Positions 36,809 through 57,644 of a stretch of DNA of 64,000 nt are shown here, in pieces. Source of the DNA: Meloidogyne chitwoodi (lineage: Eukaryota; Nematoda; Chromadorea; Rhabditida; Meloidogynidae); assembly GCA_015183035.1 (NCBI GenBank), contig JACZZP010000011.1, positions 620,001 through 684,000 of the forward strand, written 5' to 3'. A program made the translations under genes and the position numbers. The first letter of the stretch is position 1, and each line of letters opens with the position of its first letter. The notes under the pieces are model-generated. The model was given only the letters and a program-made list of their open reading frames with translations, was not told where the DNA came from and ran no database searches.

Positions 36809-37463
36809 TTTTATTTAAATAAAATAATTTTTAAATAATTATTAATAATTTTTAATTAAATTTATTCTCTTTTATAAGCATATTATTCATTTATTTAAAA
36901 ACTTGTTTACATCATTTAAATTTAATCATTTGATAATTTTTTATTTAAAAATATTTTAGTAAGACCTAAGATATTTTTTGTTTCCACATTTATAAACAAT
37001 TAAAAAACAGTTAACATTTTTTAAATTTTATTATAATGTACACAACTCACTCTCGATAAAATTACTTATTTTCTACCGTCATATTTATGCTTAAATATTA
37101 ATCTTATCGATCTGCTTCAAAACTGTTCAACCAATCATTTATTTATCTATCTATTGAAATCAAATTTAAAATTTTAATTAATATAAAAAGCTATCACCTG
37201 CGACTAAATGGGACAATCATTTTTTTGTAAAAGAATGATTCTCAAATTGATTAATTGTTCCACGTTTGTTTAAAAATTAGAATGACTAAAAAAGAAAGGA
37301 AAGTAATAAGAAAATAAATTAGTATTCTTTTTTCAATTTTTGTTATTTTATATAATTATTTATTAAACACCACAAAATACAAGATAAATAGGTATATTCA
37401 ATTATAAAGGTGAAATTATATTAACATAAATAAATATTTTTATTTTATTCTCTTTTATTCTTT

Positions 37464-40400
37464 TCAAATATATTCTTTGCAAAAAATAACAGAGCTAACT
37501 TTAATTGCTCTAGAAATTTCAATTTGAGTGACATTACTTAAATCAAGGCGTATAAAAGTGATAAATTGTTTGTAGTTGACATTTACCTAAAATTAAAAAA
37601 GAAAACAATTTAAATAGTTAATATGAACATTCTTTATTTAATTATATTTATAGTTTTGTGCCTGAATAAAAATAAACTTTATTTTTATTACTAAATCTTA
37701 CATTTATTAAAGAGCTATTTTTTCTAAAAATTTCCAAAACAAATGGCTGGCCAACTTCAAAAGGAAATCCTCCCCAACGTTCTTCAGATCCCCATCCTTT
37801 TTCTTTTGTCCAAGTATTTCGAACAACCTTTTTAAATTTTAAATATATTTTTATTATTTAATAATTACTTCTTTTTCATCAAAACGTGTACTAAAACTAA
37901 ATACAATAGAAGCATTCTTTCCCATAACACCACAATTACCCATATTAATTAAAAAATCTTTTGGTCCATATTCATCAGCAAGAAGTGTTCCAGTAATTAT
38001 AATCTTCTTTTCTGGTAGAAAACCAATTCCAAAACCAATTTTTACAAAATCGTAATTTACTGGTACATTCTTAATTAAATATTTAATTTCCTGATTTTTG
38101 TTTAATTAAAAATAATTAAAAAAAGACTAATAAAAATAATGTTTTATTTAAAAATGTATAGCAAAAAAAAATTTTATTTTTTTTACCTTAAAATTAAATA
38201 TTTTTAATTTATACATATTGTAAGACTCTAACATATAAAATATTCCCCCTGGGCAGGAACAACAATCACTCCTCCCACTTTATAAACACATATAAATAGT
38301 TTAATTGTTTAAGCTAGAAAGGAATCAGTTAGAGAGATCAGTCTAAGAGAATTATTATTATTGTGAATTAAAAATGTTATTTTCCTATAAATTGTATGTG
38401 AAATAAATAATAGAATAAATATTGACAGCAGATCTTGTTTATATATTTGAAGAGTTATAATCCTTCGGAGACGAGGGAAACAATTGAGTTGACTAGACTT
38501 AGGATTTACATTTCACGCTGGCCACGCGAATTGTCATTTTCTATTTCCCATCTACCCCTTCCACTTTACTGGTAGCACCGGATTCTGGAGTAATCCAGGG
38601 TCGATCCATCACAGATGCGGAAACTAGTCACTCAATGATGTGGAGCGCTCCACCTGCCGCAGGGCAGAGCAGATATAATGGATCCGAAATAAATACATAG
38701 CTGTCGAAAAATAGAATGCGCAGAATTCACAAACAATTAATTAAATAAAATATAAGGTATACCTTGCTGAGAAGCAGAGAAGAAACAAAAAAAAGAGAGT
38801 CCACGAGTTTGAAATGTTCAACAAAAAATAAAAAAAGAAGAAAGGAGATATAATAATAAAAGAGAGAAGAGGACATGAAAGATTTTAACAAAAAGCCCAG
38901 AATATTTAAAAAATTTTTTCTATGACAAAATTTCCCTCTAAAATGAATCTTATTATTTTTAACAATTATTCTTATTTTTTTGCAAAAGTTAAAATAATAT
39001 CGTCAATCCAGAGATTAAAGTACGAAAGGCCAAACAAGGATTGAAGATTACACAATATTTTTCTCACCATTTAAACAATATAAATTTTTGTTTTATCTCT
39101 CTACAAGTATATACATAGCAGAGCTAATAAAAATAAAACGTTAGTCCTTTTCACACATAATCTAAGTGAAAATCTTTAAAGAAAATGGAGTTATCACAAA
39201 GAGAAAGGAGAAATATAATTTAAGAATCTCAGCACAAATCATTCATTCATTTTATTTATTAAGAGAATTATAAATAAAATTTTTTTTTATTATTTTATTT
39301 ATTGTCATAAATTAAATAAATAAATTTATTATTGTTATTAATAAGTAAATAAATTAATTTTAGAAAATAAGAAGCTAATTACTTAAAACAATTAAAGCAT
39401 CTTCGTATTACCGAATAGAATTCAGTGCATCACCACATTCTTTTGATTCTTCAAGGACGAGCAGTTCTCGAATTATCAATACAAACCTAGTCGAAAGACA
39501 GAGTAGTGATAAAATGACTAATACAGCAGAGGATGAAACAATTATCATGGCAATTGACAGAAATTTTTGGATAGGAAAAACTTCAATTAAAATCTCAGAC
39601 GTTGAAAAAGCACATGGTGATGTGATAGTTTTAGAAGATAGTATGAACAAAGCCATAAGAGCTATTAAAAGGTATATCAAGCAGAACACAGATGCTATCA
39701 ATAAAGCATCAGAGGATGTGAATTTAAATTTTGAATCAGTAAACACTCAGATAATCGATTTAGAAGATCGTGTGCAAGAGCTCGAAAACAATACACATAC
39801 AAAACAAGAAAAGTCGAACGTTGAACAAGGGAAAGGTGAAACGTCCAAAAGCACTGTAACCATAGTTCCAGGAGTAAACTCACTAGATAGGCGAAATATT
39901 GTAACCAGAAAATTAAATCCTGATGATGACAGTGACGAATTTAATTTCAGCTTGAACATGCTCACCTCTAATTCTGGAATTGAGATATTCGGAGAGGAAT
40001 CAGTCTACGCCTTTGACAAGTGGGCTGAAAGATTCAAAGATTATTTAATTATTGCAGGTAGGAATTGGACCGAACAAGAGAAAGTCGCAAGACTTCGACT
40101 AGCTTTAGGTGAAACGCCAAGAGATTTGTTCAGAGAGCTTAGTCCAGCACAAGTTGCTGATGTTGGAACAGCTTTAGTATCACTAAGAAGCAAATTAGAC
40201 TCTCCTCAACGAAGGGAAGCTGCTAGACTTACCTTATCAATCTGTAAACAGAGGGAAGATGAATCGGTAGCTAGATTTTTGAAAAGACTGGTACCATTAG
40301 TAGAAGTAACAAACCCAGGTTTAGTGGATGAAGCCAGGAAAGAAAAGATCTGTGAAGAGCTAAGAGGTCGTCTTAAGCCAAGTTTAACAAATATGATGAG

Positions 40401-43400
40401 ATTAATTGGGGCAGCACAAATGAGTGATCTACAAAAATTTAAAGAAAGAGCCGAGGAAGTGGAGGCTGTGCTTCAGGCAGACAGAGGATTGCCAACCCAG
40501 CTTGAACAGGTAGTAAATGTGCTCAAGAACCAAGGTAAGACATTCAATCTAGGCACAAGCACTCAGCCAAATAATAATTTTAACCAGAGACCCGATAATA
40601 ATAATTTCAGAAAACCCTTCAGAGAAGATTATCAGAATCCAAATACTCGAAGAATGATTCAAAATTATAGAGGAATGAACCCGAACAGAATTAATATACC
40701 GGCCAGAGGTTGGAATTCACAGCAAATGAGAAGTGAAAGGAACTGGACAGGACGATCAAGGTGTTACAATTGCAATAGGACTGGACACGTTGCTCGAGAA
40801 TGTCGACTCAGAAAAGCTTTCTATCAGGGGTCCAGCCATAATGACTATAGCACACAACAACAATCTAGCAGTTATCATCAACCAGAGGGAATGAATAATC
40901 CATCAAAGCGATTCAATGCAGTAAATTCTGTGCAGCCAAACATGACAGTAGTACCAGTGGATGAATTGCTACGAGCATTAGGTTCAATGAAAATTGAATC
41001 AGACACACCAATGGAAGAACTTAGGTCTGTTACCCTGAATGCGAAAACATCATCAAAGTCAGAAGAAATAAAAAATAACGAGTATGAACCTGCTGTGAAG
41101 CAGAGGAGGAATAATTTAGAGAGAACAACAAACTGGGAAGGTATTGGTCCTGGGATTACAAAATATGTTCTCGGTCTTTTAATGCTTCTTACGATGATTA
41201 TGCCTGCTAGCAGTATTCTAAATCACCCTCTAATAGTCAAACACAAGAACAGAAAATACTCTGGGAGTTACCAGACTTTGAATTATGTTCTCATAAAGCA
41301 CTCAATCATTCGATACCACCGGTTCCGAAAAGCCTTGAAATATATTTACCTAATGATCTTGAGCATGAAACCGATGCATGGGCGTGTAGAAAGGTAAAGA
41401 AATCGATAAGAAAATATACCCCGATTACCGGAGTTGCCGTTCAGGAAGAAATGAACTCGGAGCCGATGCCTGTCAGTGAAGAGGAATGTAAACAAATGAT
41501 AGAACACCGTAAGTGCAGTTTAGGAATATTAAAGAACGACTCTGGAATATTATACACAGAAAATAAAATTGACCTTTCTCCAAGATTCTGGTTTGTTGGA
41601 TCTTTTAACTGGAAGCAGGTAAGTTCAGAAAATTGTTATCTTTTTAAAACGCAAATTATCTCTAAATTCGGGGCCAAATCCATTAAAACTAGCTTAGGCA
41701 CTACAAGTTGTCAAATAAAGGAAGAAAAATGTAAGTTGGAAGATGAAACTCTCCTAAAATGGAAGGCAGGAAAAGAGCAGAATTGTGAATACAAGAAGGT
41801 AGGTGCATGGAATGGAACACAATTGGACAATGTTTGGATTTCAGACGAAATTAATTTTCGTTTGACGTTTCCTTCAAAAACTATAAAGGCTTTTTCATGT
41901 AATTTAGGCTTAGTATTATCAACAGAGGGACCGGCAGTAAGAGATGTTACTCCAGTGAAAGTAGCAAATACAATAAAATCTGAAAATCGTGGTTATGGTG
42001 ACGTATCAATCAAGGAATTAAATAAATGGATGTACCCCCGGAGGACAAAACGAGCTATAGAAGGATGGGTGAGTGAATCAGAGTTAGATGCCAAATTGGC
42101 ATATTTAGATTCTAAAGTTTCAGAAATGATGACTATTTCATTCTCACAGGCATTAAAATCAATATGTGATTATATGGAAGAAACAAGACGCTGGGCAACG
42201 TATACCATTCTAAAAGACCCAACGAGTTTTGCTAGAGCAGTTTTTCAGGAAGAGAAACTCGTTGCTAAAAGGGTTAGCTCAACAGTGATAAGTGTATGGC
42301 CTTGCGTTCAACTCAAATGGGATGAGTATGAATTCACGAAGGTACAAAATCAAAATGGACGAGCAGAGTGTTTTGATCAACTACCAATAAAATTCAAAAC
42401 CAGGTCAACTGAAAAGTTAGCATTTCTAGACCCAATTTCAATGATTATAAGCCCTGTAGCAAGAAAGGCACCCTGTGCTGAATTTAGGAGGCAACATGTT
42501 AAAACTAATGATAAATTACTTGAAATTGACCAATTGACTGGGCAAGTAAAAGAGGTAAAAGTTAGAAAATTAAAGAAGTTTAATACACCTTCAATGTCAG
42601 TACCCGAGATTCCTATCCACACATTCCATCATTTAGTCCTAACAAACATTACTGATTTAGCCACACATGCCTTTGTAACAAACATGGTAAGAGTAAGTAC
42701 TATAACGTACACCATTCAGAAGAAAGACACTGAAGTATTAACAACTATGTCTGAAGAATGGGGCGAGGTGAAGAATGAGATCAAAAATGCTCTTTATGGT
42801 GATCTTATGCGAATATGGGACGCCATACGTAATATCATCATAATCATTGTATTCCTAGATTTATGCGTAAGAATTTGGTTAATACTTCGAGATGGATATA
42901 TGGGCGCAGGCGAATATAATAGAGCGCGTTTTTGGTCCAAAAATAAAAATAAATCACCAAAAATTGATCTAAAGACTCCTGAAATAAAAACAGAAAACGA
43001 AACTATATCTGAAATATCATTGAATCCTAGGTTAGGGACTGCCAAATTCACACCAATAGTTTTAATAGAAAATGAATCCAGTCGGAAGACTGAGCAGAAT
43101 GAAGAGAATAACAAGATAAATATGCTAGGAATTAGACAAAAGGTAAATAATTGTCAGAACATCACCACAGCAGAATCAACAGTAGTGCAAGCCAAAATTA
43201 ATTTAATTCCAGTTGATGTTTTAATTGACACAGGAGCAAGTTTGAGTGTTGCTCCCAGGTCTTTAGCTAAATATCTTGATTGTAGAGTCGATAACAGCCT
43301 AGTCGAAGCAACAAGCGCCTCAGGACATACAATAATATTCAGAGAATGCGTAGATGTATCCCTTGAATTAGCAGGTTATAGAGTAAACATAAGAGTACAT

Positions 43401-46400
43401 CTTGCTGATGACGCTGAATGTGTAAAAATGTTAAATTATGACGTAATATTAGGTTGCAATGTATTTAAAACTTTAAATAAATCGATTAGTTTTGATTTCA
43501 TAAACTCGAAATTTTACATAGGAGAAAATTCTATACCGATGGGAAACTCAAATAGATTGTTAAATAATTTAAGAATTCGCTCAGTCCATGACTATACTAT
43601 TCAACCCAATGCCCAATGTATTTTAAAAGGCAAGGTAGATTCGTTAAGTCCACCGAAGAATTTTTTAATAATAAGCAGAGTTAGTAAGAACTTAATGGAC
43701 AAGGAAATGGGAATAATTTCTAGTATCTCGCCTCAAGGCGAAGAAGAAGTTGCAGTGGCAATTGTAAATCCTACCATGGAACCTAAATTGATCAGAAGTG
43801 GAGAGAACATAGCATATGCAGATGAGATCAGACAAATAAAAGATGGATGGTTTTGTGAGAGTTATACAGAAGAAACGTTAAGTTTAAATAAGTTAAATGA
43901 AAGTGTAATCGATCCCAGCTATAAGGTTGATTTGTCAAAATCTGCGATTACAGAAAATGAAAAGGAAATGCTAGAAGTCTTATTAGAAGAATTCTCGGAT
44001 ATATTCAGTAAGTGCCAATACGATCTTGGGCTTTATACTCAAGATGAACATCACATTGTAACAACCACTGAAGATCCAGTATTTTCCCTACCAAGAAGAA
44101 TGCCATACAAATATAAAGAAGAACTGACTAAACATATAGAGCAACTCCTTGCTTCCGGGGTAATGATTGAATCAGAAACACCCTGGGTAACTCCTTTCGT
44201 AGTTGTTCAAAAGAAAGACGGTGGAATTCGACCCTGTCTTGATTTTAGAAAATTAAATGATGTCACTATACCTGATAGATATCCTCTCCCTAGACTAGAT
44301 AGTATCATGGAGAGAGTAGGAAATTGCAATTATTACACGTCACTTGATCTATCGAGTGGATATTTACAGATAAAACTCAGTGAAGAAACCTCGTGGAAGT
44401 GCGGTGTAATAACTGAAGATAAAGTTTATCAAATGATCACGATGCCTTTCGGAATGAAGAATGCAACGGCCGCATTTTCTCGAGCGATGGCAACAGTTTT
44501 GTGTGGACTCAATGAATATGCATTATCATATGTGGACGACGTTTTAATTTTTACAAAGAAAGGTGATTTTAAGGATCATTTAATTTCTATTAGAAAGGTT
44601 TTAGAAAGATTTAGATTATATAATTTGAAATTAAGTCCAAAGAAATGTGTTTTTGCCACAAAAGAGATGAATTTCTTAGGTTACACACTAACAAAACAAG
44701 GCTTTAAACCTAGTTTGAGTCGTATTGAAATAATAACAGAAATGCCAGAACCAAAAAATATTAAAGAAATAAAAAGAGTACTCGGAAAAGCTGGATTTTA
44801 CAGAAGGCATATACAAGACTTTGCATCAGTAGTGGAACCTTTATTGATGCTTACCAGAAAAAGTAACAAATTTGAATGGGGCAAGAAACAGCAGTTAGCC
44901 TTTGAGAAAATAAAGGAACTCCTGTCAAAAGCACCCAACCTAGTATTTCCGAATTACTCCAAACCGTTTCATATATTCACTGACGCCTCATCTGTAGGTC
45001 AGGGAGGTGTTCTTATGCAAAAAAATGAAGAAATAAATACATTTTCAGCCATAGCCTACTGCAGTAGGACACTTTCAGCTGCTGAGAGAAAATGGCCAAC
45101 CGTACAAGTCGAATTAAGTGCCATAATATATTCTCTTAGAGAGTTTAGGCCTTACATTTTCATGTCTGATATTGAACTGCACACAGATCACAAACCACTG
45201 GCATATTTATTAAAAAAGGTAGACACACACCCCCAACTCGCACGCTGGTTGATAGAGTTACAGAACTATCAAATAAAAATAGTGCATATTTCAGGTAAGC
45301 AAAACACCCTAGCAGACGCCTTGTCGAGAGCCGCAGAAGAAACCGCCATAGAGGATGTTCAAAGTTTAGATGAGCTTAAGGATATCATAGATTTCCCGGT
45401 ATGCTTAGCTATTAATCAACAGTCAAGGTTATCCATGTTCCCTTTCATTCATGCTATGACCCTGAGACACAACGACGGTAACTCTTATGAAGTTGATCTT
45501 ATTAAGGAGCAAAATGAAGACCCAGAAGCTAATACGTACATACAATTTTTAAAGACAGGTAAATTTCCATATGACTTCAATGAAAGTGAGAAAGACGCCC
45601 TGGCATTGGAGGTAAGCAATATGTGTCTCAAATCAGGTATATTATATTACAAATTAGAAGGACTTACACCCAGGATTTATATTCCTGTTTCCTTAAGAGC
45701 ACTAATTTTTGAGTCATTTCACACGTCACCCTTGGGTGGTGGTCACTTGAATATAAGAAAAACGTTGCATAAATGTAGGAAATATTTTTGGCCAGGGATG
45801 CACGCAGATGTATTAAATTGGATAAAGCTATGCATCACTTGCCAATTAAGACATTCCCCCGTACCCAGCTATAGAGCAGAGATGATGATCGTACCTTCAA
45901 ACACCCTCTTTGCACGAGTAGGTTTAGATCTGGCTGGTCCTTTCCCAATAACCAAAAAAGGAAACAAACATATACTTAATATAGTTTGCTGGTTCACTAA
46001 ATATGTCATTTCAGTTCCATTACCTGACTCGAAAGCTCAAACAATTGCAAAAGCACTTCTTAATAATTGTTATTTGAAATACGGTGGTTTTACGGAATTA
46101 ATCTCAGACAATGCCACAGCCTTTACATCCGAGTTATTCAAAGAGTTTTGTGCCATGCTGTACATAAACAAGAGGTATGCAACTCCTCATTGGTCCCAAG
46201 GTAATGCAGCTACAGAAAGAACGTTCAGAACGTTTCACAATATTCTGGCGAAGTATATAACAGAAGAAGAGCCAGACTTTGATGAGTATTTAGACTCAGT
46301 ATGCTTTTGCTATAACACGTCAGTACATACATCAACAAATGAAACCCCCTTCTTTTTAATGTTTGGAAGAGATCCTATATTCTGTGTAGATCAAATTATT

Positions 46401-49400: not shown

Positions 49401-52400
49401 TGATGCTCCATATTCATTTATTAAAATAATTAATACTTTACGACAAAATTAAAATACTTTTAATAACCTGATCGTTCCAAAAATTCAGCAGTAAATTCCA
49501 TAAAAATATTAACACAATCTGCTCGCTCAACTATTCCAATATATTGGTCAAATATAAGTATCTAAATTATAATTTGATTCATAATTTAAGGTTATAATTC
49601 AAGTTTGAATTTATTATTATATTCAAAATTGTAATTCAAGTTCACACCTATCAAACTTGATTTATAAAATTGCAGTTTAAAATAATAAAAAAAAAGAAAA
49701 TATAAGAAAACCTTGAAATTCACGAATACGGGCTTCTAACCTTATTTTTTTTCCATCAGCATTCTCATCATCCGTTTCACTATACCAGTAGATTCTCTTG
49801 AAGAAGCTTTCTTACCTTATTTTCCTTCATTTCTCTTGAGAACTGCTACTTTGTTGTCGTCTAATTTTGTTATATTTACCCAATGCTGGTGATGCAGAAC
49901 GATTTTTACTACGTTTCTCTTTTAATATTCCTTCAGAGTTCTTCTCTAGATTGAATAGGTTGAGGAGCAGCCTTAGCAGAAAATAAAGCAATAATAGAAA
50001 CAACAATATTCCCATCATCAGGATGAGGAATTGGCGAAACAGAATTGCTTCTCCTGTTTTACTTTTGTTGAAGGTTTTTGACTTTTGCTTAGCTGGAGTT
50101 GCAACTTTTATTGTAAAGTTGGACGAAGACGATGAATTGGAAGAATCCCTACTAAGTGATTGTGGCAGAACTCCAGTTTCAGAGTCAATATAAGGCTCAC
50201 TGAAATTTAATTTTATTTAATTTTAAATTTTATCAAACTAACAGTTCATCATCGACAAAGCTATTATCTACAATTTTTGGTCTATCCTCACTTTTGAAAA
50301 ATTCTCCAGTACTTGGAAGGCCAAGAATATCATCAGACCGAACTGCCGAACTCCTAAATTTAAAATAATAAAATTAATTTTAATAAAACAAAAATGTATT
50401 AACAAACTGTAATTAATCCGTTGAAGATCTGTTTTCGGTGATTCTCCAGAATCAACGAAAACAAACAAATACGTGACCATACGTTTCTCGTCCAAAACAA
50501 CTAAAATTAACCATAAACTATTGATTTTTTTCTTCATTTAACAAGTTTACCAGTCCCCACGCCAATTGTTTAGCACTCGAGGAGTGGAAGTAAATATTCC
50601 ATCTGAATCTAACGGACAAGTTTCACCTCGTTTTCCACCAAAACTAATTGATGATTCTACCAGGTGTTCCTTTTATTGAAGAACTGCTGACTAAGGACCT
50701 TTAATTTAAAAATTTAAATAAGTAAAAATAAAATTTTTTTAATTAAGCCAGATAGAGAATGTTCAGACAATATTGTCTCAGTAATTCTATTTGGAACACT
50801 ATAAACATAAGAAATAGGCGATGGTGGAGTTAATTGTGAAACAGAACTTTCAGAATGATGGTCCTTTTTTTGTTAAAATTAAAGAGTAATTTTAATACAA
50901 AAATCTGAAAGAATAATTCCCATCCGGCGACGACTTTCAGTTTTTTTCTTCTCATATAATTGTTCAACAGAATCAGATCCTGTTGGTTTAGGATCCAAAA
51001 AAGAATTATATCAAAAATACGTCAAATATAATTCATGACTTTAAATTAACAGGACAATGTAAATTTAAAGCTGCTTCTTCATCCAAATATTGAACTTTAC
51101 CTTCAAGTAATTTATCATCTCCAATTGTTAAACGAATTAAATCTTTATGTAAATCTGTAATATCTTCACTATTTGGTTGCCTTTCTGATCTTTATTCTTG
51201 AATTGCTTTAAAATTAGATTTTTTTTTAGAAAAATAAAATAAAATTCAACAACATTTTTGTTTTCAATTAGAATTCTACCTTTCTTTTCAAAAAAAAGAA
51301 TTTAAAGATAATTTTTGTTTATCACTTGATGAAATGCTTTAATTATAGCAAATATAGACTAGAAAAATAAGAAATATTAAAAGAAAACAAATTATAAATA
51401 TAGATCCTGCTTCAAAGCAGAGAAGAATTAAATAAAAAATTAAGTAATTTTAAAATCTATACACAAAAAAAAATTTTTTTTTCTATAAATTTATAACAAA
51501 AAAAAATTAATAAATTGAATTACCGTAAAATCATACAATAATATTACTATTTTATTACAATAATTTCATAATTTCTCTCACTTTGTACTAAAATTACAAT
51601 TGGTTATAAATTTTTATAAAATAATAAATAAATAAATAAATATATATAATATGAATCACAATAAATTGTACAAAACTTAAATAAAAATCATAACACAAAA
51701 CACCAAGAATTGCAAAGAATCGTAAAAACCATTAAAAAAAAATTATTATAATAAAAATTAAAAAAAAAAAAAATCAGTATTGTCCATAAATAGAAAAAAG
51801 AAAGATTATAATAATATATTAAAAAAAAAAGGAGAGAGATCAAAAATCTTTTTAAATATAAAATGTGAATCACATGAACATTATACATAAAAAAATGTGT
51901 AAAATCTTAAAAACCCCTCATTAATGTCCATAAATAGAAAAAGAAAGATTATAATAATAATAAAATATAAAAAAATGTAAAATCTTGAAAACGCCTTATT
52001 GGATAAATTAAAAAAAAAAGGGATATATAAAAGGCTGTAAATATACTAATGAAATCATTACCAGTCGAAAGACTGAACATTAAATAGAAAAGACTAATCT
52101 TAATATAAATTTTATTTTTAGAGAAAAAAAAAAAACTAATAATGTCTTCGAATAAGCTTAATCCTGCTGAAAAGCAGAGTAGTGACCTTGATCATATTGT
52201 TGAACCACCACCTGCTATTGATACAACTGATCCATTAAACCTTTCCAGCATCAATCAAACTCTGGCAGACGAATTTAGCAATGGAGGATTTGGACAACCG
52301 AGAACTCATCCAAGACCAAGATCTCGAGCTGACTCTTTTGCAAATGTGGGAAGTGATTGGACTGAAGGTCCGTATCCCGATCAACATCTTGCTGAAAAGC

Positions 52401-55400
52401 AAGGAACAAGTAACCCAACTGGAAAAATAATCAACTATGTGGTGGCCCAACTCCAAGAAGGTTGTGTGATCGCCGCAAAAGTGGTTTCGCAAGCCCCAGC
52501 GCCTTTACTAATGCAAATTCCTGACAATTTGGTGGATCATCCACTCTCTTTGGGAGATAATGTGGCAATCAGAGAATGGCATGAATATGATAATTTTGGA
52601 TTAGAAGGAGATTGGTTCACGGCTGGTACTGGCAAAATGTTGAACTATAATGCTACCGCTAAGGCTGTGATCAACGTTGGTGGAGGAGTAAAGTTTCGAT
52701 CAGTTGGCATCGTTTTGGACACAAATAGGAATAGGAAAGGAGGTGATCGTCGACTCAAATCAATCGAAGTGAGCTGTGCCGAGCTTCCTGGAGTCACCCG
52801 CGTCTACCGTAAGCAGTGGGGAGATACGATCAATGACAATTTACCATATCTCTCCTTGATCAAGTTGGAACTTCAGCAAGTACTTCGACCCCCGGACATG
52901 TTGGTAGGTCTTAATTATATTCTTCCAGCATATGTTTCGTTCGGACTTGGTGATGAACAGCGAGTACACCAACCGACTGCGATCGTAAAAATTGATCTTG
53001 AAAGAGGTAAATATGAATTCCCGTTTCACCGCCAACTCGAGTGGGCGCAAATAAAGTTTGGGGAAAAAGTGATCAGTGCAGCAATCGCAGCCGAAATCGA
53101 TAAGATCCGCAAGGATCAGCAGAAATATACAGTGATAGTGGAGACAGAGACTGTCAGAACAATGGGACCGGCTCAAATGGTTGTACGCTTCGCCCATCAG
53201 GTAAGGTCGAAAATTGAACTTGTAGAGATGGCCAAATGGTATGAAGAGGATTCGTCCGTCTCCTGCTCCATAGTTCAAGATGCCTCTCCTTGCGCTCATG
53301 GATTCGTCACTCAGGCTCGAAAGGATGTCAAAGAAGACAACTTCCTACTGAAAGTGGAGCTAATTCTGGCGTATCAAGAAGCTAAAGGTGAGGACAATTG
53401 GCCAATGTGGGAAGAATATGTCAACGGTGAGCTCGATACCGTCAAGATCATACCCCTTCAATCGACTGCAGCACTTTTAAAGCGAATGGAACTGTTTGCT
53501 GCCAACCTTCCATCTGAAGCTGCTAGATCAGGAACTTCTAAAAGTAAGTTATTAACAATTTTACTTGGAAAAGGTGATCGATCTGAACGACCAGCCATAC
53601 GTGCACATCAGGTAAGTCAAGGGGCAAATTTTATTAATAATTTAGGAAATGAACAGGCCCGGACAGCCGAACTTCTTTTGGACGAAGTTCCCAGAGTGGT
53701 GTTTGCCCAGGCACCACCAGGAACTGGAAAAACACACACTGCTGCCTCAATCATGGCTGCAATACTCGAAAGGGACCCTGAGGCAAGAATTTTGGCAATG
53801 GCACCCCCAAACATTGCCGTTGTGAAGCTGGTAGAAGAAATGGATAAAGCAATGCAACAAAGTACAAGACCACAAAAGATGCTGGCGCTCTTCTCCGGAA
53901 ACGGTAAAATAAGATATGCAAAATATTTAAGGGAGATCACGCAGCACTTGCTGATCACTGCGGTTGATGATGAAGAATTGATCAAGGCATTGAAGCCGAC
54001 AGAAGAAAAGAAGGTGAAGCAATACGTGACAACCGTGGAAAGAAATCCCCGACTGGCACAAGAAGCCAGTATTGCGACAATTCTTCAGGCACACAAACAA
54101 AGAAGGTTGTGCTTCTCGACTTTATCCTTCGCTGAACAAGTTCCAGTGCTGTTTTCTGAGACTACACATCTAATTTTAGATGAATCCGGTCAAGCTCCAT
54201 ACTCGCAGGTAATTTCTTTAATTTATAACATGCCCAAACTCCGAAAGGTGTTAATAACTGGCGATCGCAGGCAACTCAAAGTGCACTTGGAGTCACTTCC
54301 TCGAGCTGTTCGAGTCGGATTTGGACTAGACAGTGTGATCTTCAACCTTGATGCGACTGATGGCGTTGGAAAGACGGCCCTCCAGGTTGGATACCGATCA
54401 CATCCACACATTGTGAAGTGCATCGAAGCTGGATTCTACCGACCTCATGGAGAAAGACTGACAGCCGGACTTGAAGCTGATCAGAGAAGCATGCTCACGT
54501 CCAGTACACTGAAGCTCCCCAAGGTAAGTTGCCCTATTATTCTAATTCACCAGGTACATGAAGCTGAACGAGATGCGGTATCAATGTCCAGCTATAATCC
54601 CGGACAAACATGGACTGCTTTAAGAATTCTCTGGCGCCTGGTCAATGTCTGCCCTCCGGAAGCATCAATCAGATGTATATGCTTGTATGGCACTCAATCC
54701 CAGGACATTGAAAGGGAGGTACAGGCTGAAGAAGAATTAAATGGCCGAGTTCTTGTGACTACGGCTGATGCAACTCAAGGGCACGAGGCCGACGTAACGG
54801 TCGTAGTCACAACCGTTTCGGAATATCAGGAAAAGTCCGAGGAGGGAAAAGAGCCATTTTGGTGCGATCCAGATCGTGTGAACGTCAGCCTCTCTCGAGC
54901 CCGCCATGGCCTGATACTGATTGGGAATCTTCACATCCTGGAACAAAAGAAAGGATGGAGGGAATTTCTGGCCGAAGCCAAGCAGCATACAATTGTGGTT
55001 GGTCCTTCATACTTGGATGCCATACGTGAGGAGGGGATCGACTACAACCAAGATGGCGAGCTGATGGACAAATCAGGTAAAATGATGCGTGATCCGGCCT
55101 ACTACACTGAAGAAGGAAAGCGCAATGTAAGTCGAGGGGGTTATCACCGATATGATTCTTATCTTTCTAGAAGCGAAGAGCAGTCTGGAGCCAGCACGTC
55201 CAAGCGGAGCCGCAGATGAAGAAAAGGAAGAAAAATTGAAGATGATGGAAGAAGTGTCCAGGAAGAACGTCAAGAAAATCTGTAAAATTGTAAATTTAAT
55301 TAAAGGTTGTTCACCCCCTCCCTCCAAAAAAATAATAATTAATTAGGTCTTTGGCTCCCCCTTATTCTCTCACTTAATCTAATCCTCATCCTCTTTTAAT

Positions 55401-57036
55401 CTTTTTATCTTTTTGAAGAAAAGGGAAAGTAATCCGGGGTATACTCCTTTTTCGACCTATGCCTTCAATTCCACGCAGACTGAAAGGGCATATCATAAGA
55501 TATGCGCGGAGGACTGTCAGAATCGCGGTGGGCAGCACCCACTAGCATTTCTGATTTATCCACACTCCCAGTTTGCTCGAGTTGATGTCCTTGGCCGATT
55601 TCATTCGGAAAGGCAGGTACAGTCGATCCAGAGAGTATCAAAGGATGAAGCCCCTAGTAATCAAATTCTTTTATTTTTAAATATTTTAATTATTTCTTGG
55701 ATCGTGGACGATCCTCACGTAAAGGGGAGCTGTAAGACTCTAACATATAAAATATTCCCCCTGGGCAGGAACAACAATCACTCCTCCCACTTTATAAACA
55801 CATATAAATAGTTTAATTGTTTAAGCTAGAAAGGAATCAGTTAGAGAGATCAGTCTAAGAGAATTATTATTATTGTGAATTAAAAATGTTATTTTCCTAT
55901 AAATTGTATGTGAAATAAATAATAGAATAAATATTGACAGCAGATCTTGTTTATATATTTGAAGAGTTATAATCCTTCGGAGACGAGGGAAACAATTGAG
56001 TTGACTAGACTTAGGATTTACATTTCACGCTGGCCACGCGAATTGTCATTTTCTATTTCCCATCTACCCCTTCCACTTTACTATATCTTACCACATTTGA
56101 AAAATTAAATAGCTTTTCGCATATTAAAGGTGGTATTAGAGGAGGGTCGTCACAAAATGTTATAGAAATTAATTTAATCGCACCAGTAATTACTAATTGA
56201 CTTACTCTTCCAAAAACATGATAAATCTGATAATATGCACCAAATTTATTATTTACACTTATCTATAAGAATAAAAAATTAAAATATTTTGATAATAATT
56301 TTTATTTTTAAAATTTAAATGGGAGAATTTAATTTAAATAATTTAATAAAAATAAACTCTTTATTAAAATACTTTTATTTAATTCTAAATTTAATTATTG
56401 ATAAATCTTTTCCTAAGATTATTTAAAAATTATACTTTTACTCCAGGGTTTTTAACTGTAAGAGAATCAACTTCAAAAACAAATGGCTGGTCAATTGCAA
56501 ATGGAAATACTAAATAACGTTCTTCCTTTCCCCATCCTTTTTCTTTTGTCCAAGTGTTCAAAACAATCTTTAAATATAAATATTTATTTAAATATTTGAA
56601 TTGATATATTTGTGAAGTATTAATTTAATTACATCTTTTTTATCAAAACGTGGATTGAACTGAAAAGGAACATCAGCAGTTTTAAATAATTCGCCATCTT
56701 CTGCCAAGTTAATGGCACATTGGTCTGTCATGTTTGTAGGTATTCCAACAATTATTATTTTTCTATCTTCTCCTATAAATCCTTTTCCAAATCCAACCCT
56801 TCTAAAATCAATTGTTTGCGGTACTGTCTTAATTATTTTTTTAATTATAAGAAAACAATTTTTAAATTTCAATTTAAAAATTCTCTGACCGTATTAAATA
56901 TAACAATTGGATTAGAACAAGTTTGTGAATCAATTATAGTAGTGCTCAGCCATTTAATTAATAAAATGAATGCTATCAACTAAATTTATTTAATAATTAA
57001 AATTTTATTTTAAATTTAATAATATATTACCTTCAT
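37464..57036 (-). CDS. Galectin F: two-CRD galectin split by the LTR element
   Basis: The 5' half (57036 to 56091: ATG, signal exon, CRD1, linker exon) and the 3' half (38070 to 37464: CRD2 and last exon) belong to one gene, as the order and sequence of exons in its paralogues show. The LTR element lies in the intron between linker and CRD2, eight bases or so beyond the linker donor (GTAAGATAT). Donor and CRD2 acceptor are both intact, and the element is antisense to the gene. CRD1 has QFNPRF (His is Gln) with WGKEER; CRD2 has FSFSTRF. Whether the gene is still spliced across 18 kb is unknown. Confidence 0.75.
38219..38570 (+). repeat. 5' LTR
   Basis: Begins TGTAAGACTCTAAC and ends CCACTTTACT. 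It has a TATA-like run (TATAAACACATATAAATAG) and, about 120 bp further on, AATAAA (38402), a probable polyadenylation signal. No difference from the 3' LTR was found. Confidence 0.92.
38281..38299 (+). promoter_or_regulatory. Candidate TATA region of the LTR promoter
   Basis: TATAAACACATATAAATAG lies about 60 bp into the LTR, upstream of the AATAAA at 38402. The spacing suits a short U3 region. It is repeated identically in the 3' LTR. Confidence 0.45.
38570..38587 (+). other. Candidate tRNA primer-binding site
   Basis: TGGTAGCACCGGATTCTG begins at the last LTR base and starts with TGG, as expected for pairing with a tRNA 3' CCA. The partner tRNA could not be assigned by eye. GGATT...AATCC in the same stretch can also form a small hairpin. 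Confidence 0.5.
38588..39513 (+). other. Long untranslated leader before gag
   Basis: About 930 bases without a conserved reading frame. It contains the palindrome at 38640-38653, a hairpin with GAGA loop at 38764-38777, and candidate acceptors such as TTTTAG near 39362. It is long enough to hold packaging signals and a splice donor for a downstream helicase mRNA. Confidence 0.5.
38640..38653 (+). promoter_or_regulatory. Palindrome in leader, possible RNA dimerisation site
   Basis: GTGGAGCGCTCCAC is a perfect 14-base palindrome about 70 bases after the primer-site candidate, in the untranslated leader. Retroviral genomes often use such palindromes to start RNA dimer formation. Function here is inferred from position only. 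Confidence 0.35.
39514..41397 (+). CDS. gag: Gag polyprotein, with hydrophobic C-terminal segment
   Basis: 627 codons. Residues about 85-100 are a short coiled segment (VNTQIIDLEDRVQELEN). Residues about 150-340 match the retrotransposon Gag capsid pattern (FDKWAERFKDYL, then SLRSKLDSPQRREAARLTL). A CCHC zinc knuckle lies at C417-x2-C420-x4-H425-x4-C430, within an Asn/Arg/Gln-rich nucleic-acid-binding tail. Unusually, residues 548-567 form a hydrophobic stretch (ITKYVLGLLMLLTMIMPASS) that looks like a signal or membrane segment. From 41211 the other, pol-side frame is also open, so the two frames overlap for about 190 bases. The hydrophobic piece may serve as the leader of the downstream env-like region by a frameshift or splice. 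The start codon is the first ATG with a good upstream context (AAAATG). Confidence 0.88.
   Translation: MTNTAEDETIIMAIDRNFWIGKTSIKISDVEKAHGDVIVLEDSMNKAIRAIKRYIKQNTDAINKASEDVNLNFESVNTQIIDLEDRVQELENNTHTKQEKSNVEQGKGETSKSTVTIVPGVNSLDRRNIVTRKLNPDDDSDEFNFSLNMLTSNSGIEIFGEESVYAFDKWAERFKDYLIIAGRNWTEQEKVARLRLALGETPRDLFRELSPAQVADVGTALVSLRSKLDSPQRREAARLTLSICKQREDESVARFLKRLVPLVEVTNPGLVDEARKEKICEELRGRLKPSLTNMMRLIGAAQMSDLQKFKERAEEVEAVLQADRGLPTQLEQVVNVLKNQGKTFNLGTSTQPNNNFNQRPDNNNFRKPFREDYQNPNTRRMIQNYRGMNPNRINIPARGWNSQQMRSERNWTGRSRCYNCNRTGHVARECRLRKAFYQGSSHNDYSTQQQSSSYHQPEGMNNPSKRFNAVNSVQPNMTVVPVDELLRALGSMKIESDTPMEELRSVTLNAKTSSKSEEIKNNEYEPAVKQRRNNLERTTNWEGIGPGITKYVLGLLMLLTMIMPASSILNHPLIVKHKNRKYSGSYQTLNYVLIKHSIIRYHRFRKALKYIYLMILSMKPMHGRVER
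41451..42960 (+). other. Envelope-like glycoprotein region (N-terminal third of the pol ORF)
   Basis: Covers codons 1 to about 503 of the ORF. Evidence is structural only: many cysteines, several N-x-S/T sites (for example NGT, NIT), the basic cleavage-type site RRTKR, then a segment starting AIEGWVSESELDAKLAYLDS that could be a fusion or heptad region. A single long hydrophobic segment follows at codons 461-480, with a basic cytoplasmic side. I could not assign it to a known viral glycoprotein class. Alternatively it could be a non-entry membrane protein. Confidence 0.55.
41451..47057 (+). CDS. pol: Env-like region fused to Pol: protease, RT, RNase H, integrase
   Basis: 1868 codons from the first ATG; the frame is already open from 41211. 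Residues 1-200 form a cysteine-rich, ectodomain-like part with N-glycosylation sites. RRTKR at 197-201 looks like a furin cleavage site, and a transmembrane stretch lies at 461-480 (NIIIIIVFLDLCVRIWLIL). The protease has D593-T-G-A-S. RT has YVDD at 1027-1030, and RNase H has TDAS around D1178. Integrase has an HHCC zinc motif from H1424 and catalytic D1493, D1553, E1589 (DD35E). The C-terminus carries a GPF/Y-like module (PWKGLYRVVELD) and an acidic tail. The integrase type and RT place it with Ty3/gypsy. An env-like block before pol, in the same frame, is not the usual gag-pol-env order. All catalytic residues are present. Confidence 0.9.
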   Translation: MNSEPMPVSEEECKQMIEHRKCSLGILKNDSGILYTENKIDLSPRFWFVGSFNWKQVSSENCYLFKTQIISKFGAKSIKTSLGTTSCQIKEEKCKLEDETLLKWKAGKEQNCEYKKVGAWNGTQLDNVWISDEINFRLTFPSKTIKAFSCNLGLVLSTEGPAVRDVTPVKVANTIKSENRGYGDVSIKELNKWMYPRRTKRAIEGWVSESELDAKLAYLDSKVSEMMTISFSQALKSICDYMEETRRWATYTILKDPTSFARAVFQEEKLVAKRVSSTVISVWPCVQLKWDEYEFTKVQNQNGRAECFDQLPIKFKTRSTEKLAFLDPISMIISPVARKAPCAEFRRQHVKTNDKLLEIDQLTGQVKEVKVRKLKKFNTPSMSVPEIPIHTFHHLVLTNITDLATHAFVTNMVRVSTITYTIQKKDTEVLTTMSEEWGEVKNEIKNALYGDLMRIWDAIRNIIIIIVFLDLCVRIWLILRDGYMGAGEYNRARFWSKNKNKSPKIDLKTPEIKTENETISEISLNPRLGTAKFTPIVLIENESSRKTEQNEENNKINMLGIRQKVNNCQNITTAESTVVQAKINLIPVDVLIDTGASLSVAPRSLAKYLDCRVDNSLVEATSASGHTIIFRECVDVSLELAGYRVNIRVHLADDAECVKMLNYDVILGCNVFKTLNKSISFDFINSKFYIGENSIPMGNSNRLLNNLRIRSVHDYTIQPNAQCILKGKVDSLSPPKNFLIISRVSKNLMDKEMGIISSISPQGEEEVAVAIVNPTMEPKLIRSGENIAYADEIRQIKDGWFCESYTEETLSLNKLNESVIDPSYKVDLSKSAITENEKEMLEVLLEEFSDIFSKCQYDLGLYTQDEHHIVTTTEDPVFSLPRRMPYKYKEELTKHIEQLLASGVMIESETPWVTPFVVVQKKDGGIRPCLDFRKLNDVTIPDRYPLPRLDSIMERVGNCNYYTSLDLSSGYLQIKLSEETSWKCGVITEDKVYQMITMPFGMKNATAAFSRAMATVLCGLNEYALSYVDDVLIFTKKGDFKDHLISIRKVLERFRLYNLKLSPKKCVFATKEMNFLGYTLTKQGFKPSLSRIEIITEMPEPKNIKEIKRVLGKAGFYRRHIQDFASVVEPLLMLTRKSNKFEWGKKQQLAFEKIKELLSKAPNLVFPNYSKPFHIFTDASSVGQGGVLMQKNEEINTFSAIAYCSRTLSAAERKWPTVQVELSAIIYSLREFRPYIFMSDIELHTDHKPLAYLLKKVDTHPQLARWLIELQNYQIKIVHISGKQNTLADALSRAAEETAIEDVQSLDELKDIIDFPVCLAINQQSRLSMFPFIHAMTLRHNDGNSYEVDLIKEQNEDPEANTYIQFLKTGKFPYDFNESEKDALALEVSNMCLKSGILYYKLEGLTPRIYIPVSLRALIFESFHTSPLGGGHLNIRKTLHKCRKYFWPGMHADVLNWIKLCITCQLRHSPVPSYRAEMMIVPSNTLFARVGLDLAGPFPITKKGNKHILNIVCWFTKYVISVPLPDSKAQTIAKALLNNCYLKYGGFTELISDNATAFTSELFKEFCAMLYINKRYATPHWSQGNAATERTFRTFHNILAKYITEEEPDFDEYLDSVCFCYNTSVHTSTNETPFFLMFGRDPIFCVDQIINPNIKEQSSPMSRDDFKQKLVKSLRRAWECAAEAHTEAQLRFKEQYDKKVRQPIIKVGDRVLLRNYAGKPNTSKKFQLPWKGLYRVVELDNIHATIVSCVSPQAKPKRVHLNQIKKCFEQLGPTCTTGESEEQNPDHNNEIVPEEDNPQELSDERAPNTNCDEEVTHRNEQLAEKRSRSEERSWKPNKKELVVPNNREYNLRSRTLIRKPEKYRIGDS
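47173..47340 (-). CDS. Possible terminal exon of an unknown protein
   Basis: The minus strand reads PITTFKLKKLIMKQFDMQIF, then a short acidic/Gln coiled tail (EQMDKLEQQLNQITSN) and a stop (TTA at 47173-47175). Composition is protein-like and an AG precedes it, but it connects to no recognisable upstream exon. It could be the 3' end of the kinase-bearing insert or a separate gene fragment. Confidence 0.3.
   Translation of the reverse strand, partial: FKKIPITTFKLKKLIMKQFDMQIFCSTRMGRVQQNSEYAEQMDKLEQQLNQITSN
48727..51192 (-). pseudogene. MEKK2/3-like MAP kinase kinase kinase fragment, antisense in retroelement
   Basis: Exons with 40-100-bp introns read on the minus strand. Kinase subdomains in order: YIGIVERADCVNIFMEF (near 49482-49560), IVHRNIKPAIILRN with KIGDFGSAKFLQTICSEQGI (49205-49345), SGTPHYTTPDIIR and KSDVWSVGITVMSFL (49070-49190), and FFEVINLMLERKPEERS (48860-48960). 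The DFG block and the following LQTIC resemble MEKK2/3. The catalytic Asp of HRD is Asn (HRN), and the ATP-binding Lys region was not found. Upstream exons to 51192 are Ser-rich linker sequence, as in MEKKs (for example DPKPTGSDSVEQLYEKKK, SSAVRSDDILGLPSTGEFF). It is probably inactive as a kinase. Introns retained in antisense fit capture of genomic DNA or readthrough RNA. Confidence 0.7.
52062..52075 (+). other. GNRA-tetraloop hairpin 5' of helicase ORF
   Basis: CAGTC-GAAA-GACTG forms a perfect 5-bp stem, 67 bases before the helicase ATG. Similar hairpins: 43079-43092 (GGAA loop), 52164-52177 and 52388-52403 (GAAA, inside the ORF), 46915-46928 (end of pol), 38764-38777 (leader). Confidence 0.45.
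52100..52121 (+). promoter_or_regulatory. Candidate splice acceptor for the helicase mRNA
   Basis: Pyrimidine/T-rich ATATAAATTTTATTTTTAG ends at 52121, 20 bases before the helicase ATG at 52142. A spliced subgenomic RNA from the LTR leader would place this ORF first. The donor is unknown. Confidence 0.4.
52142..55219 (+). CDS. UPF1-like superfamily 1 RNA helicase carried by the retroelement
   Basis: 1025 codons. Residues 1-500 are an unassigned N-terminal region, with a basic, Pro/Arg-rich segment near 50-65. The SF1 helicase core is complete: Walker A APPGTGKT at 524-531, motif II DESGQ at 680-684, motif III GDRRQ at 707-711, motif IV VGYRSHP at 749-755, motif V TADATQG at 874-880, motif VI VNVSLSRAR at 913-921. 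Motif order, DESG and the VI signature fit the UPF1/SMG-2, MOV10 and ZNFX group, which unwind RNA and act in RNA decay and silencing. The C-terminal tail is basic (STSKRSRR). The ORF is GC-richer than the host DNA and lies in the same orientation as gag-pol between the LTRs. It may aid packaging or reverse transcription, or counter RNA surveillance; these are inferences. Several short AT-rich stretches look like in-frame mini-introns. Confidence 0.92.
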   Translation: MSSNKLNPAEKQSSDLDHIVEPPPAIDTTDPLNLSSINQTLADEFSNGGFGQPRTHPRPRSRADSFANVGSDWTEGPYPDQHLAEKQGTSNPTGKIINYVVAQLQEGCVIAAKVVSQAPAPLLMQIPDNLVDHPLSLGDNVAIREWHEYDNFGLEGDWFTAGTGKMLNYNATAKAVINVGGGVKFRSVGIVLDTNRNRKGGDRRLKSIEVSCAELPGVTRVYRKQWGDTINDNLPYLSLIKLELQQVLRPPDMLVGLNYILPAYVSFGLGDEQRVHQPTAIVKIDLERGKYEFPFHRQLEWAQIKFGEKVISAAIAAEIDKIRKDQQKYTVIVETETVRTMGPAQMVVRFAHQVRSKIELVEMAKWYEEDSSVSCSIVQDASPCAHGFVTQARKDVKEDNFLLKVELILAYQEAKGEDNWPMWEEYVNGELDTVKIIPLQSTAALLKRMELFAANLPSEAARSGTSKSKLLTILLGKGDRSERPAIRAHQVSQGANFINNLGNEQARTAELLLDEVPRVVFAQAPPGTGKTHTAASIMAAILERDPEARILAMAPPNIAVVKLVEEMDKAMQQSTRPQKMLALFSGNGKIRYAKYLREITQHLLITAVDDEELIKALKPTEEKKVKQYVTTVERNPRLAQEASIATILQAHKQRRLCFSTLSFAEQVPVLFSETTHLILDESGQAPYSQVISLIYNMPKLRKVLITGDRRQLKVHLESLPRAVRVGFGLDSVIFNLDATDGVGKTALQVGYRSHPHIVKCIEAGFYRPHGERLTAGLEADQRSMLTSSTLKLPKVSCPIILIHQVHEAERDAVSMSSYNPGQTWTALRILWRLVNVCPPEASIRCICLYGTQSQDIEREVQAEEELNGRVLVTTADATQGHEADVTVVVTTVSEYQEKSEEGKEPFWCDPDRVNVSLSRARHGLILIGNLHILEQKKGWREFLAEAKQHTIVVGPSYLDAIREEGIDYNQDGELMDKSGKMMRDPAYYTEEGKRNVSRGGYHRYDSYLSRSEEQSGASTSKRSRR
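53544..53656 (+). other. Two intron-like in-frame segments in the helicase ORF
   Basis: 53544-53573 (30 nt, GTAAGTTATT...GGAAAAG) and 53612-53656 (45 nt, GTAAGTCAAG...GAACAG) have strong splice-site ends and AT-rich interiors. Both lengths are multiples of three without stops. Similar segments: 54524-54553 (30 nt, GTAAGTTGCC...CACCAG) and, less convincingly, 54209-54247 (39 nt). Near the C-terminus, 55127-55170 (44 nt, GTAAGTCGAG...TTTCTAG) would change the frame and give another basic tail. Confidence 0.5.
55220..55720 (+). CDS. Possible small 3' reading frame before the polypurine tract
   Basis: A frame open from 55413 (the track-style ATG gives MKKRESNPGYTPFSTYAF) continues to the LTR and contains Cys/His residues (HKICAEDCQNRGGQH) with a better composition than random host DNA. 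An acceptor-like TTTTTGAAG precedes it near 55419. It might be a last exon of an alternative helicase transcript. No family is recognised. Confidence 0.35.
55721..55729 (+). other. Polypurine tract
   Basis: AAAGGGGAG lies one base before the 3' LTR, the expected place for plus-strand DNA priming. It confirms the orientation of the element. Confidence 0.8.
55731..56082 (+). repeat. 3' LTR
   Basis: 352 bp, base-for-base the same as 38219-38570 on reading. It is followed directly by ATAT (56083-56086), the duplicated target, and then the galectin F donor site. Confidence 0.92.
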
Positions 57037-57644
57037 TTTTATTTAACTAATTATTAATAATATTTATAATTATTTAAATTTATTCCCTTTTAAATAAATG
57101 TTTTCTTTATTTAAAAACTTGTTTACATTTTTTAAATTTAATCATTTGATAATTTTTATTTCAAAAAGATTTTAGTAAAACTTGATATATTTTTTTGTTT
57201 CCACATTTATTTTTATAAAACATTAAAAATTCTCTTTAAAATTTGTCATAAAGTAAACAACAAATCAGTCTCGACCATTTGTTAGTTTCTGTCGTTGTAT
57301 CTTTTTTATCACACAATCAAATTTAAAATTTATTTTATTCTCAAATCGTTATTTTAATTGTTCAACGTTGATTGAAAAAAGTTTCTTTTTCTAATTTATT
57401 TTTTTAATAAAGAATTATTTTTTATCAAAACGATGAGAGTGTTACATAAATTTTATTATTTATTAATCTTACTGATTTTCCTCAAAACCTGGAATTTATC
57501 GTTCTATTTATATCATATATTTTAATATCTTTGTTTATTTATTTATCTAAATGTATAAAATAAATATTCAACTTTAATTGGTGAAAATATTATATCATCA
57601 ACAAATATTTTTATTTCATTCTTTCCAATTAATATTCTCTTCAA

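Follow-up and report, generated by a model that had tools for sequence, protein, structure and literature searches.

Is a helicase gene that lies inside a retrotransposon a working part of the element or a passenger? The question is raised by a 64,000-nucleotide stretch of the Meloidogyne chitwoodi genome (the window; C3:620001-684000), in which positions 38219-56082 hold a 17.9-kb element with long terminal repeats (LTRs), gag, pol and a 1025-codon open reading frame (ORF) for a UPF1-like helicase. Helicases of the UPF1, MOV10 and ZNFX kinds usually keep retroelements in check. We searched the genome (47,477,280 bases in 30 contigs, each labelled C with a number) and found two further helicase-bearing subfamilies, B and C, beside subfamily A, the window element. 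Recurrence in three subfamilies, a single helicase clade apart from host UPF1 and purifying selection in B and C make the helicase look like a long-inherited accessory gene that does real work for the element.

The window element was confirmed as a young, recently transposed Ty3/gypsy-type element. Its LTRs (38219-38570 and 55731-56082) are the same at 352 of 352 positions, ATAT stands on either flank and the polypurine-tract (PPT)-like AAAGGGGAGC lies at 55721-55730, just as the original prediction had read them. The gag and pol genes that it had named were recognized by Pfam, with a CCHC knuckle in gag and, in ORF2 (41211-47057), protease (PR), reverse transcriptase (RT), RNase H (RH) and integrase (IN) in this order (Asp_protease_2, RVT_1, RT_RNaseH, Integrase_H2C2 and rve). 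The gag ORF also gave a weak PNMA match below the Pfam cut-off, and its 3′ end encodes a hydrophobic signal-like segment. Paired LTRs, a target duplication, a primer-binding site (PBS), a PPT, a CCHC gag and the PR-RT-RH-IN order are all shared with Ty3/gypsy elements (Metaviridae), to which the window element is assigned by domain order and Pfam domains rather than by named reference RTs; it differs from them in adding an envelope (env)-like gene 5′ of PR and a helicase gene 3′ of IN. BEL/Pao elements have protease and pol signatures of their own, and no BEL/Pao model was among the Pfam matches to the pol of the window element. The PBS-like stretch contains GGTAGCACC in common with elements B and C; two exact patterns matched no gene for the priming tRNA.

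The A LTR matched 11 places in the genome. Eight of them, counting both LTRs of the window, are 98-100% identical to it, another is 86% identical, and the remaining two are 51-base matches on C27. Solo A LTRs were found on C2 and C1, with ATAT and ATAA duplications, and on C6, where an older one has AAAT. A second A copy, at C4:372217-382031, reads LTR, gag, a deletion of window positions 41077-49135, the second half of an insert described below, helicase and LTR, and the bases 5′ of its first LTR are not ATAT. A third, at C29:1213780-1218005, consists of the 3′ part of the helicase and the 5′ part of gag, with ATAT on both flanks. After the second LTR of the C4 copy comes another gag start (C4:382031-383500, L028), and this LTR seems to be common to two partial elements; no helicase was found in the ~1.5 kb read there. 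Helicase scraps at 69-84% identity on C17, C11, C16 and C12 suggest that the A lineage has long been resident in the genome. Two of these contigs, C17 and C16 (~153 kb each; L009 and L011), carry the same scrap near the same position and are perhaps two haplotypes of a single region.

When the A RT-IN region (966 aa) was used as query, 38 places were matched. The best three beyond A (59-62% identity) each lay immediately 5′ of an independently found helicase relative, as did a fourth match, a piece at C8:447341 (51%). Element B (C8:1618721-1633910, 15.2 kb) has 400-bp LTRs, ATAT on both sides and a helicase ORF of 1079 aa. Element C (C12:949985-966840, 16.9 kb) has LTRs of 601 and 596 bp, ATAT on both sides, a single gag-env-pol frame of 2692 aa and a helicase ORF of 1277 aa. 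The LTRs of A, B and C are different, and the helicase ORF lies between pol and the 3′ LTR in B and C as in A. Because the A LTR recurs at 8 places and the other subfamilies show the same layout, the window element is not a product of chance. With second copies of B (L031, beside L033) and C (L032, beside L034), seven larger LTR-linked copies were read, and all seven retain helicase sequence, several in damaged form; the C4 copy and L032 have lost pol sequence and kept the helicase. The original prediction had named a helicase between pol and the 3′ LTR of several copies as support for a stable component, and copies lacking it, with helicase ends that show a separate insertion, as a refutation. 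The helicase is supported as part of the mobile unit: A, B and C carry it at the same position, and none of the seven is without helicase sequence. RT trees comprised loci of this genome together with nematode or metagenome database proteins; within the genome, the helicase-bearing elements formed one clade (support 100/99), in which A grouped with B (96/95). A genome search with Pfam AAA_12 matched 24 places, six in the helicases of element copies and one more in a split match of L033; the remaining places lay elsewhere, among host genes where inspected.

The helicase ORF (52109-55219 from stop to stop, ATG at 52142) matched AAA_11 (7e-14) and AAA_12 (1.7e-26) in Pfam. The viral family Viral_helicase1 (PF01443) scored 6.9e-5 against the AAA_12 value, indicating that viral superfamily 1 (SF1) helicases are not its closest kin. 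The A, B and C helicases are 25-28% identical to one another and retain the SF1 motifs that the original prediction had read in the ORF: motifs I, II, III, YRxHP, V and VI are legible in the alignment, the YRxHP of B being taken from L031. In a PDB profile search UPF1/NAM7 came first (2.6e-37 to 1.9e-36), followed by SMUBP2 (3.7e-29), SEN1 (2.6e-23) and ZNFX1 (4.1e-14), and the label "UPF1-like" is right for the SF1B core. NCBIfam gave sub-cut-off matches only, the best to an IGHMBP2-type family. The N-terminal half of the helicase had no Pfam match, and the N-terminal Cys-His zinc domain by which UPF1 binds UPF2 had none in Pfam at E-values up to 0.1. AlphaFold2 on a four-row helicase alignment returned a mean pLDDT of 33.7. 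The B helicase has a tandem 39-bp unit near its N-terminus (L033, reverse complement 3547-3740), where the second B copy aligns with a different extent.

The origin of the gene was addressed in a tree of 12 helicases: three element rows, the database protein P0001, two host UPF1 genes on C28, host SMUBP2, two further host SF1 genes, one further protein and two fungal SEN1-type proteins. The element rows and P0001 formed a clade of their own (100/100), separate from host UPF1, SMUBP2 and SEN1; the order among the cellular families was unsettled, and C formed a long branch of unusual composition. The phylogeny against host SMG-2 for which the original prediction had called speaks against a recent capture of SMG-2: the element helicases sit on one long branch outside host UPF1, and we rejected such a capture. 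Cellular UPF1/SMG-2 has the same SF1B core and is the best PDB match, whereas the element helicases stand in a clade separate from the C28 UPF1 genes and have an N-terminal half without Pfam match. The simplest reading of these sequences is a single old acquisition that predates the divergence of A, B and C, the source being a UPF1/SMUBP2-like helicase of the SF1B type. An inner order (A,B),C in a larger helicase tree was dropped, since its B row joined two frames and its branches were very long; with the B row left untouched only the single element clade remains. Scans of viral contigs with the helicase and env alignments yielded no confirmed relatives. As for the host genes, one exon of one C28 UPF1 gene matched UPF1 at 2.8e-47. 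The second UPF1-like gene (L041, C28:2108201-2111201), near the normal one, has AAGTGKT for PPGTGKT in Walker A and DDCT for DEST in Walker B, with the other motifs retained.

Differences within LTR pairs were few in all subfamilies, as befits young copies: no substitution in 351 positions of either the C4 or the C29 copy, 1 in 400 in B, and none, with 5 gap columns, in C. Between the helicases of each copy pair, codons touching gaps were left out of the counts. The C pair differs by 46 synonymous and 31 nonsynonymous changes (on 875.5 and 2931.5 sites) and the B pair by 12 and 3 (on 679.7 and 2443.3 sites), and the pooled dN/dS was ~0.17 (p = 8.7e-17). The helicase is under purifying selection in the B and C copy pairs.

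The second unusual gene is the env-like region, the first ~580 codons of ORF2, which is 40% identical to that of B and 34% to that of C. The three share cysteines, an RTKR furin-type site and a hydrophobic transmembrane (TM)-like stretch 5′ of the protease. PF24664 (Monjiviricetes_fusion) was matched in two of the three aligned members (best 1.5e-10), the window copy being without a match; the C env passes the cut-off (35.3 bits versus 27), and the larger B ORF gave no PF24664 match in the Pfam scan. A PDB search with the env profile returned insignificant matches only. A database search with the env region, which returned proteins only, found 10 matches (one from Globodera pallida, five from G. 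rostochiensis, one from Heterodera trifolii, one from M. hapla and two others). Seven also match the A RT, in pieces of varying length, with env 5′ of RT in 7 of 7; P0017, P0019 and P0020 had no RT match. Four of the 10 were scanned for PF24664, and three matched, all below the cut-off, P0024 being without a match. Since env precedes PR and RT in A, B and C and RT in all seven database proteins, the gag-env-pol order belongs to a wider nematode lineage. Four database polyproteins (G. rostochiensis, M. hapla and two others), those of sufficient length for the RT tree, have RTs 75-81% identical to that of A and nest in it among A, B and C. Within this genome env matched 15 stretches, several of them weakly and in other contexts. 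Two sister elements, on C11 (L054) and C7 (L053), also have env 5′ of pol. No helicase was detectable in the 6.7-7.3 kb read 3′ of their pol; in its place they carry a small ORF (200 aa on C11, 248 aa on C7) that ends in an RG-rich tail. The LTRs of these two elements were not located.

The 17.9-kb span of the original prediction is real, and the length is partly owed to a 4.2-kb mosaic insert between pol and helicase. Window positions 47110-51346 are colinear with a kinase gene at C3:1234003-1236768 (80-88% identity), broken up by pieces like C23:2525708-2528405, C23:1624636-1624916 and C9:181273-182088 (78-90%); the C23:2525708 family has several copies in the genome. The kinase exons are antisense to the element, with an intron apparently retained. 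Part of the insert is present in the C4 copy, and none of it was matched in L031-L034, which span the pol-helicase intervals of B (278 nt) and C (1259 nt). The insert looks like a passenger. A second viral gene in this long spacer was considered and rejected, as the spacer matches other loci of the genome, chiefly the kinase gene. The features of the window element are collected in Table 1. A repeated host stretch surrounds it, with units on both sides (window 36138-37819 and 56423-57998).

Table 1. Features of the window element (positions in the window)
Feature	Position	Strand	Basis
5′ target duplication ATAT	38215-38218	.	sequence read
5′ LTR, TGTAAG...TTTACT, same as 3′ LTR	38219-38570	+	LTR alignment
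PBS-like TGGTAGCACCGGATTC; first T common to LTR end	38570-38585	+	
gag ORF, stop to stop; CCHC knuckle 40759-40806	39379-41397	+	Pfam
env-like glycoprotein region of ORF2; RTKR 42042-42053; TM-like stretch 42813-42869	41211-42980	+	alignment
Aspartic protease domain	43185-43460	+	Pfam
Reverse transcriptase and RNase H	44205-45269	+	Pfam
Integrase, H2C2 zinc binding and rve core	45681-46187	+	Pfam
Mosaic insert, apparently host-derived	47110-51346	-	matches to other loci of the genome
Antisense protein-kinase exon fragments, intervening intron apparently retained	49040-49387	-	PF00069 at 1.4e-7 and 1.7e-6, each narrowly short of the cut-off
Possible 3′ splice site TTTTTAG, 20 nt 5′ of helicase ATG	52115-52121	+	putative function
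UPF1-like SF1B helicase ORF, 1025 codons plus stop	52142-55219	+	Pfam, alignment, PDB profile search
PPT-like AAAGGGGAGC	55721-55730	+	sequence read
3′ LTR	55731-56082	+	LTR alignment
3′ target duplication ATAT	56083-56086	.	sequence read

What could the helicase do for these elements? We favour, with a probability of roughly 0.55, the reading that this is an env-bearing Ty3/gypsy-type lineage whose helicase translocates on the element's own long RNA and displaces surveillance, so that the RNA escapes decay. The layout is LTR-gag-env-PR-RT-RH-IN-helicase-LTR, and on this reading the helicase has been kept by the lineage as an old accessory gene. Its protein would most likely be translated from a spliced or trans-spliced (SL) subgenomic mRNA; putative splice sites are TTTTTTTTCTTTTCAG, three bases 5′ of the B helicase ATG, and TTTTTAG 5′ of that of A. 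The helicase may then act as a translocase on the long genomic RNA, its RNA substrate and direction of movement being presumed, and may clear or replace those host proteins that bind or survey RNA, above all host UPF1. Because 4.0 kb in B, 6.0 kb in C and 9.0 kb in A separate the gag-env-pol stop from the end of the 3′ LTR, UPF1-dependent (nonsense-mediated) decay of the element RNA by the host would be expected. Lacking the zinc domain for UPF2, a translocase of the UPF1 type could sit on the RNA and clear it with no decay recruited, and the 15-18 kb RNA, with its 4-9 kb after the stop, would escape decay and reach particles. A broader formulation that we offer tentatively, at appreciably lower confidence, is a gag-env-pol-helicase lineage of retrovirus-like elements in plant-parasitic nematodes, in which Env threads the membrane midway along a single Gag-Env-Pol polyprotein and Pol stays tethered to its cytosolic face, and in which a dedicated UPF1-class helicase was recruited once and kept against RNA surveillance.

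Several observations weigh against the protective reading. Within A, the changes are too few to show selection on the helicase (3 synonymous and 4 nonsynonymous between the window and C4, 2.7 and 4.3 between the window and C29), and the C4 and C29 sequences have one internal stop each. In B, L033 is without 219 bp including the YRxHP motif, and the helicase of L031 is broken by a frameshift. Element C has no good splice site 5′ of its helicase. Two protein searches, with 7999 candidates scored in each, found as close helicase relatives only P0001 (a JGI contig, 79%) and P0002 (M. floridensis). The original prediction had suggested a search of related nematodes; it succeeded in M. floridensis, and no helicase of G. 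rostochiensis or M. hapla was among the close relatives found. In the relatives from these two species the helicase may be absent or not annotated, and this is the chief point against its presence in every member of the lineage.

The main rival to the protective reading, possible and distinctly less probable, is that the helicase enters the particle and aids reverse transcription or RNA packaging, unwinding the 15-18 kb genome. The C-terminus of the B helicase has a CCHC match of the gag type (7.8e-4; 19.9 bits, just below the 20.8 cut-off), which fits either reading, and the A helicase tail is rich in R, S and G. The small ORF with an RG-rich tail in the helicase-less sisters also looks as if an RNA-binding accessory protein were ancestral. 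However, there is no gag fusion or known packaging signal, and the sister elements seem to manage without a helicase. We consider it unlikely that the protein promotes the nuclear export or the expression of unspliced RNA of the element, in the manner of CERV of C. elegans Cer1. Cer1, a Ty3/gypsy element of a nematode, depends on CERV, a protein of its own, to export its genomic RNA, but the word "helicase" is absent from the main text of the paper on it (PMC10309623).

It appears very improbable that the helicase was captured by chance and is of no use to the element, which seems to be the case for the kinase insert. Passengers do occur, as the broken kinase fragment in the same element shows, and helicases are damaged in both B copies, C4 and C29. 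However, long helicase ORFs persist in three subfamilies at 25-28% identity, B and C have no kinase insert between pol and helicase, and the synonymous excess in the B and C pairs strains this explanation. An assembly artefact joining unrelated pieces is hardly credible, given that pol, helicase and LTR follow one another in this order at four further places (L031-L034) and that 4-bp target duplications flank both places read on either side, B and C.

Helicase-bearing retroelements are already known from insects. TRAS and Jockey LINEs and Ty1/copia-domain fusions (Aedes, Leptopilina) carry an SF1 helicase with motifs retained; in the available text of these papers the insect helicases are virga-like viral ones fused to element proteins, whereas that of the window is UPF1/SMUBP2-like and has its own ORF in an LTR element (PMC5563155, PMC6338049). 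Orchid Ty3/gypsy elements with an ORF for an AlkB m6A demethylase are likewise giant Ty3 elements that encode one more enzyme acting on RNA, a trait proposed to reflect surveillance by the host; they differ in encoding a demethylase rather than a helicase, in their plant host and in that the abstract mentions no envelope (PMC9289625). Cer1 with CERV resembles the window element in its nematode host, its Ty3/gypsy type and its possession of a protein for RNA handling; its genomic RNA is given as ~8.4 kb, and the available text mentions no helicase (PMC10309623). Anakin elements carry a chuvirus glycoprotein and are comparable as LTR elements with an acquired glycoprotein of the negative-strand RNA virus kind, but are described as BEL-Pao elements of mosquitoes, whereas the window element has a Ty3-type pol and its glycoprotein between gag and protease (PMC7642597). 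The main text of a survey of transposable elements in plant-parasitic nematodes does not contain the word "helicase" (PMC11118728). No Ty3 element with a UPF1-like helicase among its genes, and no env-bearing Ty3 lineage of this kind, was among the literature matches listed, whose scope excluded most subscription papers and all preprints.

The finding bears on two points of retroelement biology. In errantiviruses and retroviruses the env gene lies 3′ of pol; the env-like region of A, B and C precedes PR and RT, and this env-before-pol order departs from the retroviral gag-pol-env order. Moreover, through a lineage that carries and keeps a UPF1-class helicase of its own, the role of such an enzyme in a retroelement can be addressed directly.
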